From Streptacidiphilus jiangxiensis (GTDB lineage Bacteria; Actinomycetota; Actinomycetes; Streptomycetales; Streptomycetaceae), in NCBI RefSeq assembly GCF_900109465.1, contig NZ_FOAZ01000012.1:124001-188000 (forward strand): a stretch of DNA of 64,000 nt, read 5' to 3'. The position numbers and the translations under genes were made by a program. Positions 18,664-35,236 of the stretch are shown in pieces (positions within the stretch are counted from its first letter, which is position 1; the number at the start of each line of letters is the position of its first letter). The notes beneath the pieces are model-generated. The model made no database searches. It saw nothing but the letters and a program-made list of their open reading frames with translations, and was not told the origin of the DNA.

Positions 18664-18795
18664 GAGCGATCGCTCCCGCAGGAAGCTGCGCTACCCAGGG
18701 GCGCGAGGCTGTGCCGATCTGCGGCTCCGCCGCGCGGGCGCGCCAAGCCCGCAGATCCGCTCCCACAGGAAACTGCACCACCCAGGGGCGCGAGG
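18664..18795. repeat. Two 38-bp direct repeats flanking a 9-bp inverted repeat
   Basis: Bases 18671-18708 and 18758-18795 are direct copies matching at 34 of 38 positions, both containing ACCCAGGGGCGCGAGG. Between them GATCTGCGG (18716-18724) and CCGCAGATC (18749-18757) form a perfect 9-bp inverted repeat. The second copy runs into the left arm of the larger palindromic element at 18784. Together they fill the gap upstream of dinB. Confidence 0.75.
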
Positions 18796-33970: not shown

Positions 33971-35236
33971 GTGTCGCTCGCTCAGTCCGCCCCCGCGCCC
34001 GTCGTCGGCAACCCCGTCGACGCGGAGTGGCTGCGAACCCGGGTCGACGGCGCGCTGGACACCTTCCTCGCCGACCAGGAGCGGACCCTGCTGGCGATCT
34101 CGCCGCAGCTGGCCCCCGTCTGCGGCACGGTCCGCGACTTCCTGCTGGACGGCGGGAGCGAGCCGAAGGGCGCGCCGATGCCGCAACGACGAGGGCCAAG
34201 CGAGACTGGGACCACCTGCGACTCCGCCGCGCGGGCGCAGCGCCTGAGGAGCGAAGGCATCGGGCCAGGAGCGCACGGAGGCGAGCGACCAACAGGCCGC
34301 AAACGCCTGCGGGCGGCGTTCTGCTACTGGGGGTGGCGCGGCGCGGGGGGTGCGGCGGACGAGCCCGGTGCGGTGGCCGCGGCGGCGGCGCTGGAGCTGC
34401 TCCAGGCCAGCGCGCTCGTGCACGACGACCTCATGGACCACAGCGACACCCGGCGCGGCCTGCCCTCGGTGCACCGCCGCTTCGAGTCCCTCCACCGCGG
34501 CTCCGGCTGGCGCGGCGACGCCGCGCAGTTCGGCAGCGCCAGCGCGGTGCTGGTCGGTGACCTGCTGCTGGTCTGGTGCGACGCGCTCTTCTCCGACAGC
34601 GGCCTGCCCCGCGACGCCGTGCGCCGCGCCAAGCCGCTGCTCGACCTGATGCGCACCGAGGTGATGGCGGGCCAGTACCTCGACATGCTGGAACCCGCCG
34701 CGAACTGGCCCGACTCCGGGCAGGGCGCGGTGGACCGCGCCCGCACGGTGATCGAGTACAAGTCCGCGAAGTACACCGTGCAGCGCCCGCTCCAGCTCGG
34801 CGGCCTGCTCGCGGACGCCTGCGCCGACCTCACCGAGGCCTACGGCGCGTTCGGCCTGCCGCTGGGCGAGGCCTTCCAGCTCCGCGACGACCTGCTCGGC
34901 GTCTACGGCGACCCCGCCGTCACCGGCAAGCCGGCCGGGGACGACCTGCGCGAGGGCAAGCGGACCCTGCTGGTCGCCGAGACCCTCGCCTCCTGCGGGG
35001 CCGCGGATGCCCGCATGCTGGACGACCTGCTGGGCTCCCCCGAGCTCGACGCGGACGGCGTCGAGCGGCTGCGCGCGATCATCACCCGGAGCGGCGCCCC
35101 GCGCCGCATCGAGCAGCGGATCAAGGTCCTGCGCGAGGCCGCGCTGACGGCGCTGGACTGCGCGCCGATCCGCGAGCCGAGGGCCCGCGAGATCCTGACC
35201 CGCCTCGCCGACGCCGCGACCGCCCGCCGCCACTGA
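33971..35236 (+). CDS. Polyprenyl (isoprenoid) diphosphate synthase with an in-frame insertion
   Basis: A 421-residue trans-prenyltransferase. The first aspartate-rich motif is HDDLMDHSDTRRG and the second is FQLRDDLLGVYGDP, with EYKSAKYTVQRP between, so the catalytic set is present. Product chain length cannot be told. The IPP-binding motif normally read as GGKRLRP is split: DGG at about residue 62 is followed by 48 extra codons (34157-34300) before KRLRAAFCYWGW. The insert has atypical codons and no counterpart in the family as I know it. GTG at 33971 is the likely start; the frame is open far upstream over metF. Activity of the interrupted protein is uncertain. Confidence 0.85.
   Translation: MSLAQSAPAPVVGNPVDAEWLRTRVDGALDTFLADQERTLLAISPQLAPVCGTVRDFLLDGGSEPKGAPMPQRRGPSETGTTCDSAARAQRLRSEGIGPGAHGGERPTGRKRLRAAFCYWGWRGAGGAADEPGAVAAAAALELLQASALVHDDLMDHSDTRRGLPSVHRRFESLHRGSGWRGDAAQFGSASAVLVGDLLLVWCDALFSDSGLPRDAVRRAKPLLDLMRTEVMAGQYLDMLEPAANWPDSGQGAVDRARTVIEYKSAKYTVQRPLQLGGLLADACADLTEAYGAFGLPLGEAFQLRDDLLGVYGDPAVTGKPAGDDLREGKRTLLVAETLASCGAADARMLDDLLGSPELDADGVERLRAIITRSGAPRRIEQRIKVLREAALTALDCAPIREPRAREILTRLADAATARRH
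34157..34300 (+). other. In-frame insertion inside the polyprenyl synthase gene
   Basis: These 144 bases lie between the DGG and KRLR codons of the substrate-binding motif. Twelve of the 48 codons end in A or T, including CAA, three CGA, three CCA and ACA, far more than in the flanks. CCGATGCC (34175-34182) is inverted as GGCATCGG (34256-34263), so the segment is partly palindromic. It keeps the frame and has no stop codon. This resembles a mobile palindromic element that has been tolerated in a protein; the origin is inference. Confidence 0.65.

Follow-up and report, generated by a model that had tools for sequence, protein, structure and literature searches.

A polyprenyl diphosphate synthase gene with an in-frame insert

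The window, a 64,000-nucleotide stretch of the Streptacidiphilus jiangxiensis genome, contains a polyprenyl diphosphate synthase gene whose coding sequence is interrupted in frame by a segment belonging to a family of dispersed repeats (Table 1). Within the 421-residue protein the interruption amounts to exactly 48 extra codons, numbers 63-110, which lie between DGG and KRLR. The original prediction had 48 codons splitting the GGKRLRP motif at this very point, and its limits, 34157-34300, prove exact. These codons are absent from all 37 of the other aligned proteins, four of which hold 2-3 residues in the insert columns. In this alignment 29 rows reach left of the site and 8 start at the motif; for 6 of the latter the DNA was followed through the site (L067 and L103 were left out). 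When the DNA is read across the site, the codons are likewise missing from 13 of 13 other genomes of the genus.

Table 1. Features of the polyprenyl diphosphate synthase gene and its insert (window positions).
Feature	Position	Strand	Evidence
Polyprenyl diphosphate synthase gene, 421 aa, host of the insert	33971..35236	+	Pfam PF00348, E 3.2e-43; AlphaFold fold; PDB 3qqv
In-frame insert, 48 codons, peptide SEPKGAPMPQRRGPSETGTTCDSAARAQRLRSEGIGPGAHGGERPTGR	34157..34300	+	Protein alignment; pLDDT <50 over residues 62-109
Core of the repeat element, GAGCGAGCC ... GGCGAGCGA	34156..34288	+	R2 and R1 covariance-model matches; alignments
5' outer stem arm, GGGCGC	34168..34173	+	Consensus structure
3' outer stem arm, GCGCAC (GCGCCC in the family; one pair broken in the window copy)	34271..34276	+	Consensus structure
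5' inner stem arm, CCGATGCC (the inverted repeat originally predicted)	34175..34182	+	Family covariation in the stem
3' inner stem arm, GGCATCGG	34256..34263	+	Exact inverted repeat; family covariation
Loop segment common to a second repeat of the genus; absent from compact copies L007 and L008	34214..34238	+	25-base matches, 96% (L009, L012, L013); alignment
Right end of the insert, GAGCGACCAACAGGC, resembled by sister species (there read as a scar)	34283..34297	+	DNA read across the site
KRLR, remainder of the GGKRLR motif, intact	34301..34312	+	Invariant columns K111, R112, R114

The segment also stands apart in composition. A quarter of its codons had been said to end in A or T, unlike the flanks, and the count bears this out (12 of 48, versus 8 of 373 in the rest of the gene; Fisher p 8e-8). 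GC content at its second codon position is 0.75, compared with 0.52 in the rest of the gene, and is as high as at its third position. The excess of A/T-ending codons and the equality of second- and third-position GC make the insert unlike evolved coding sequence. No sign of an intein or intron is seen: the insert is 48 residues long, and a Pfam scan at E 0.001 gives polyprenyl_synt alone. The 8-bp inverted repeat that had been pointed out in the segment is present exactly at 34175-34182/34256-34263, but it is unremarkable by itself, since such a repeat occurs in 470 of 1276 144-mers sampled along the window.

A dispersed repeat in the Streptomycetaceae

The insert is a decayed member of a palindromic repeat family whose copies, about 107-140 nt long, are dispersed. 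A covariance model (R2) built from 29 copies, with both the window copy and the second copy from the same genome (L002) excluded, finds the window copy at 34150-34294 with an E value of 2.7e-10 over the 64-kb window, where the next best match has an E value of 0.014. A further model (R1), whose build includes the window copy, matches 34155-34293. In the rest of the 9.5-Mb S. jiangxiensis genome (G000, 93 contigs) there is one near-full second copy, L002, which is 79% alike over 128 nt. This copy (1501-1627) overlaps the last codons and the stop of a reading frame that we take to encode a fatty-acid desaturase. Such likeness at the DNA level, together with the R2 match and the foreign codon use of the insert, makes it very improbable that the segment is an ordinary lineage-specific loop unrelated to mobile DNA, even though an in-frame position, a full form in one species only and a constrained host gene would all suit such a loop.

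Four short matches to the insert elsewhere in the S. jiangxiensis genome all derive from another repeat. Short matches at query positions 27-97 (L003-L006, L009, L012 and L013) were accordingly rejected as copies, being a different repeat. Matches are found in 4 of the 14 genomes of the genus, S. jiangxiensis included; since the match in one of them (G002) belongs to the other repeat alone, true copies are present in three (G000, G004 and G006). The core of this second repeat, CTGCGGCTCCGCCGCGCGGGCGC, occurs in the window at 18703-18741 and in L003, L005, L006, L009, L012 and L013; the loop of the window copy seems to contain a piece of it, as does, with less likeness, the loop of L002.

The repeat also occurs beyond the genus, in numbers that differ between genomes. 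With the compact copy of G004 as a DNA query (two candidates per genome), at least 52 of 345 Streptomycetaceae genomes matched, from 9 of 17 genera; the R2 model, under stricter filters, finds it in 23 of 61 genomes of the family and in 10 of 17 genera. In 12 chosen genomes, with up to 150 candidates scored per genome, R2 counts reach at least 96 (G142), at least 32 (G101), at least 9 (G162), at least 4 (G017) and at least 3 (G206), with at least 2 each in S. jiangxiensis and G006 and at least 1 in G004; in G002, G007, G008 and G009 there were none among the matches listed. The two genomes richest in copies, G142 and G101, are most likely Kitasatospora. Kitasatospora aureofaciens ATCC 10762 has 19 matches, and three other Kitasatospora have 1, 3 and 3. 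The matches listed on the 8.86-Mb contig C1 of G142, viewed by eye, occupy the inner part of the contig rather than its ends, all but one lying at 2.59-7.28 Mb and one at 7.97 Mb. No match was seen in Yinghuangia seranimata, Streptomyces sp. SID3343, one Paractinoplanes or one Micromonospora. A class-wide draw gave matches in 8 of 394 genomes. Four of these genomes belong to other families, and their matches are tentative: those of one group (f17; L241-L243) fall at one like spot with repeated flanks of their own, and that of another (f26) is weak (E 0.0013). L241, L242 and L243, from three genomes of another family, have a hairpin that looks related and is bordered by direct repeats; it lies just before what seems to be the same gene start. 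A typed consensus had no match at 1e-5 among 72,556 plasmid and 50,697 phage records (BLAST, low-complexity filter on).

Structure of the repeat

In its Kitasatospora form the element extends from about CCCCGAGCCGAAGGGCGC to GCGCCCGGAGGCGAGCGGGCGA, and its ends pair in a long imperfect stem. The core has a median length of 106 nt (5-95% range 85-140; 74 copies), and its GC content is about 75%. Over 29 copies 98.1% of the stem cells are paired, and cells in which both partners have changed number 31, compared with 8.3 in shuffles. The covariation score is 0.195 versus 0.090 in shuffles (0 of 500 reach it), a control inflated by related sequences, and slid versions of the structure score at most 0.055, a control that preserves relatedness but favors a structure drawn, like the present one, from the very alignment under test. 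Rfam has no family at the element at E values up to 1 in 11 loci, L001 included. Separately, a ZMP/ZTP riboswitch lies at L007 2939-3029, above its gathering score, and is unrelated to the repeat.

Individual copies differ in how well they fold. Compared with shuffles, L002 (z -2.45), L007 (z -2.98) and L008 (z -1.86) fold better. The window copy does not: no excess is found for 34145-34315 as DNA (z -0.10), and 34157-34285 as RNA folds worse than shuffles (z +2.25, with 200 of 200 shuffles as good). Because it folds no better than shuffles, unlike the three other copies, the window copy is probably decayed as a hairpin. Since the insert by itself shows no excess structure, the palindrome is a property established for the family, and it is membership in a repeat family with a covarying stem that makes the insert significant.

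Two further properties concern the arrangement and coding capacity of the repeat. Copies can form tandem, head-to-tail arrays, as in L120, where four units follow one another with a period of 123. Arrays of up to six units are seen in L120, L191 and L297, with periods of about 121-152 nt in G142 and G162. All six reading frames are open in 43% of 74 copies, compared with 19% of mononucleotide shuffles, and the peptide encoded by the element is of the type RAEGRAGAESDER.

Copies within genes of Kitasatospora

Selection by hand among the R2 matches yielded 55 stretches in G142 and 32 in G101, which hold 89 sites when the units of an array are counted together. According to a GC-frame script, 14 of the 89 sites fall in a coding frame that stays open to either side of the element, 13 in the sense and 1 in the antisense orientation; one of these, L228, barely clears the threshold of the script. 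An in-frame flag at L140, which is outside the 89 sites, was dropped, as the protein looks like a wrong-frame ORF. The script places the remaining 75 sites in intergenic or not clearly genic sequence. At 10 of them there is same-strand coding sequence on both sides with no single open frame, and these may represent neighboring genes or genes broken by the element. Among random segments of the same length from the same loci, 465 of 999 pass the in-frame test, so that, with 14 in-frame sites in 89, the element either tends not to enter genes or is lost from them.

The in-frame copies are biased toward the sense orientation (binomial p 0.0018). The other sites differ from this set when scored against the gene 5' of the element (15 sense, 28 antisense; Fisher p 1.6e-4), and against the gene 3' of the element they are 18 sense and 20 antisense. 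Given the sense bias and the hydrophilic peptide, insertions may be filtered by selection acting on the translated segment; a preference at the insertion step is the alternative. In a Pfam check of 13 of the 14 genes (L307 was left out), domains span the element or are split at it in 7. The element lies within the domain in Tyr_Deacylase (L199), Glyco_hydro_20 (L220) and PNP_UDP_1 (L197, the antisense case), and it lies beside or between two Pfam stretches in Aminotran_1_2 (L174), Condensation (L201), SSF (L231) and PknG_TPR (L180). In the other six genes it is between or outside domains.

Empty and trimmed sites

Empty orthologous sites are found in the three genes compared with orthologs: the window gene, the D-Tyr-tRNA deacylase gene and the GH20 gene. 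The deacylase gene was matched in 26 of 26 genomes searched; among the 17 that were read, G142 is filled and 15 are empty. In G148 (L248) another short insert, perhaps a decayed copy, occupies the place of the G142 element. The GH20 gene was matched in 15 of 17 genomes, of which 14 were read (G703 was left out). At this one site G101 has the full element and G038 an in-frame, internally deleted remnant; G210 has a similar short form with host-like codons, which appears trimmed, and the site is empty in 8 Kitasatospora and 3 more distant genomes. The ends of the element pair partly in the consensus structure, and no clear target-site duplication is visible by eye at the sites compared.

Presence of copies at unrelated sites, together with empty orthologous sites wherever these were compared, argues for movement or copying, and on these grounds the repeat would be mobile. 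An alternative is that it is a structured RNA or regulatory element under selection, which has been locally duplicated rather than mobilized and whose genic copies are by-products. Such an element would account for the compensatory changes in the stem, the tandem arrays and the 75 of 89 sites that are not called genic. However, it is improbable given the same unrelated and empty sites, a copy number that runs from 0 to at least 96 across genomes of the family, and the mixed orientation of copies relative to neighboring genes.

History of the insert in Streptacidiphilus

If the segment were an ancestral loop, distant relatives should carry it with normal codon use. Among the 13 other genomes of the genus read in DNA and the named relatives whose alignment rows cross the site, none does; extra residues (3-4) are present in the four nearest sister species only. 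The outgroups G009 and G004 read SGGKRLR and GGGKRLR. G006, G008 and G002 have four extra codons each and G007 three, so that these species read DERPTGGKR, GERPTGRKR, DGRPTGGKR and SGPTGGKR, respectively, and the right end of the window insert reads GGERPTGRKR. Together with S. jiangxiensis the four sisters constitute one clade (support 91/95 by the gene, 100/100 with metF), within which no order of S. jiangxiensis and G008 is either supported or rejected by the tree of metF plus the gene. A tree that used unchecked flanks, in which S. jiangxiensis fell outside the sisters and G004 beside G008, contrary to the gene tree, and whose tests disfavored a clade of the four sisters (p 0.018), was dropped on the guess that the flanks are partly non-homologous, and metF plus the gene was used instead.

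The extra codons of the sisters resemble the end of the element. The extra bases of G006, GAGCGGCCAACA, are one base off the right end of the window insert. Of 29 aligned copies across the family, 25 have GGAGGCGAG at the right end, 17 have GGAGGCGAGCG followed by A or G, and 5 have the exact end GGAGGCGAGCGA, the full G004 and G006 copies included. Both full copies from other Streptacidiphilus genomes (L114 and L117) show the exact form with a terminal GCGA. Because GGAGGCGAG ends so many copies, and because the exact end is shared with those of G004 and G006, the 3-4 codons are best read, from sequence comparison, as scars of an insertion in the ancestor of the clade. The differences among the sisters would fit more than one deletion, and a single deletion followed by substitutions is also possible. 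Since the sisters seem to retain its trimmed end, the insertion is probably older than S. jiangxiensis, a correction to the original prediction.

Alternatively, the 3-4 residues of the sisters could be the older state, with the element entering the S. jiangxiensis lineage later at that spot, in which case they would not be scars. The tree favors neither order of S. jiangxiensis and G008, a single gain in S. jiangxiensis needs no losses, and the exact end is found in just 5 of 29 copies. Nevertheless, this sequence of events is unlikely in view of the one-base difference between G006 and the insert's right end, the prevalence of the less exact ends and the GCGA form in the genus, and the series from full to trimmed at the GH20 site.

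Constraint on the host enzyme

The GGKRxRP loop, which the insert splits, is expected to bind IPP. Downstream of the insert, dN/dS is 0.145-0.213 between S. jiangxiensis and the sisters and 0.127-0.174 between pairs of sisters, and S. jiangxiensis has no change at positions where six other species agree. Sequence comparison thus indicates that the host gene is still under purifying selection. An AlphaFold prediction from 38 sequences has a mean pLDDT of 85.5, with residues 62-109 and 1-12 below 50 and the rest mostly above 80; low values in the insert are expected, as no other aligned row has it. In the prediction the fold is kept and helices flank the insert on both sides. The best PDB matches are actinobacterial relatives, the C. 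glutamicum GGPP synthase (3qqv) and Rv2173, one of them with IPP bound. On the indirect grounds of dN/dS and the predicted fold, the enzyme may still work with the insert.

A proposed origin of the insert

Taken together, these data argue, with a probability of about 0.86, that the insert derives from a non-autonomous palindromic repeat of Streptacidiphilus and other Streptomycetaceae, which has spread, landed in frame and later been trimmed to a scar in the sister species. The expectation of a palindromic mobile segment accepted in frame is thus borne out by the dispersed copies, the in-frame copies in other genes and the empty orthologous sites, with mobility deduced from the distribution of copies. 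In this process the repeat would spread to new places and sometimes land in frame within coding genes. Because the element is GC-rich, about 107-140 nt long and often without stop codons, translation could pass through it and yield a hydrophilic segment that is probably disordered, and copies that survive in frame would nearly always be sense. The segment would then erode by internal in-frame deletion until a scar of a few residues remains, while its codons (as judged by eye) may drift to host usage. In the window gene the element would have entered in the ancestor of the five-species clade; the 48 codons would have been kept in S. jiangxiensis and cut to 3-4 in the four sisters, an order suggested by the comparison of species. 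The mover is perhaps an enzyme that recognizes the hairpin and acts in trans.

A search for a transposase or autonomous partner in four genomes gave no PF01797 protein in S. jiangxiensis, 1 in G006, 2 in G142 and 1 in G101. No copy lies in the four loci around the PF01797 genes of G006, G142 and G101, which are far from copies. When the sequence between inverted pairs of copies in G142 was inspected for a transposase, L294 showed nothing convincing and L192 a reading frame of ordinary appearance.

A broader proposal is put forward tentatively, at somewhat less than even odds: the element may be widespread, still active and recognized by its hairpin, regularly adding disordered segments to functional proteins, with visible stages that run from a fresh in-frame insertion by way of internal deletion to scars with adapted codons, and many small lineage-specific indels in proteins of actinobacteria may be its fossils.

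Comparison with known systems

Palindromic repeats that code for parts of proteins are known chiefly in Rickettsia and Wolbachia, which have small, AT-rich genomes. The hosts of the Rickettsia palindromic elements (RPEs) are AT-rich obligate intracellular alphaproteobacteria, and Wolbachia belongs to a different phylum from the hosts of the repeat described here. No description of this repeat was found among the matches listed in a literature search, in agreement with the earlier statement that no described counterpart was known in streptomycetes.

Among other small repeats, REP/BIME sequences are, according to PMC3733652, palindromic, mostly extragenic, clustered and sometimes inside ORFs, with REPs of 20-40 bp tagged at one end by GTAG or CGTC. 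Bacterial MITEs (NEMIS, ERIC, RUP) are, according to PMC2229807, small non-autonomous repeats, and ERIC and a 107-bp form of NEMIS occur fused in genes. The repeat could be a REP/BIME or MITE of known type whose transposase (Y1/RAYT or IS) went unrecognized. Its palindrome, tandem arrays and mostly non-genic sites suit this broad class (PMC3733652, PMC2229807), and CGTC is found at any position in 20 of 29 aligned copies with flanks (GTAG in 2 of 29). Nevertheless, such an assignment is doubtful. Its unit measures some 107 nt or more rather than 20-40; in the copies viewed, CGTC appears inside a stem arm rather than at an end; S. jiangxiensis has no Y1_Tnp enzyme, and those of G142, G101 and G006 lie elsewhere, with no copy in the surrounding loci. 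With MITEs, as described in PMC2229807, the repeat shares its small, non-autonomous character and copies within genes, but it may lack clear terminal inverted repeats, a target duplication and a parent IS.

The preferred reading, a separate non-autonomous repeat, finds parallels among elements inside proteins. The Wolbachia protein-coding palindromic repeats are alike, to judge from the title of the report, in being palindromic repeats within proteins. RPEs, as PMC2229807 describes them, are 105-146 bp long, form a long stem-loop and occur both between genes and in frame within them; one host protein, gmk, retains its activity, although its affinity is altered. The likeness to RPEs that had been proposed from the window sequence extends to the size of the palindrome, the covarying stem, the in-frame genic copies and the empty orthologs. 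The repeat differs from RPEs in being GC-rich and actinobacterial, in occurring partly in tandem arrays and in its full, trimmed and empty states. Thus, by analogy of behavior rather than by sequence comparison, it appears to work like an RPE and yet to be a separate GC-rich family.

The same behavior in antibiotic producers that live freely and have large, GC-rich genomes would point to selfish DNA as a general route to new protein segments. The site of the insert is telling, since the substrate motif that it divides belongs to a core enzyme of lipid-precursor synthesis, and the gene appears to be still under selection. As close relatives differ in having full, trimmed or empty sites, the history of insertion and removal is directly testable.
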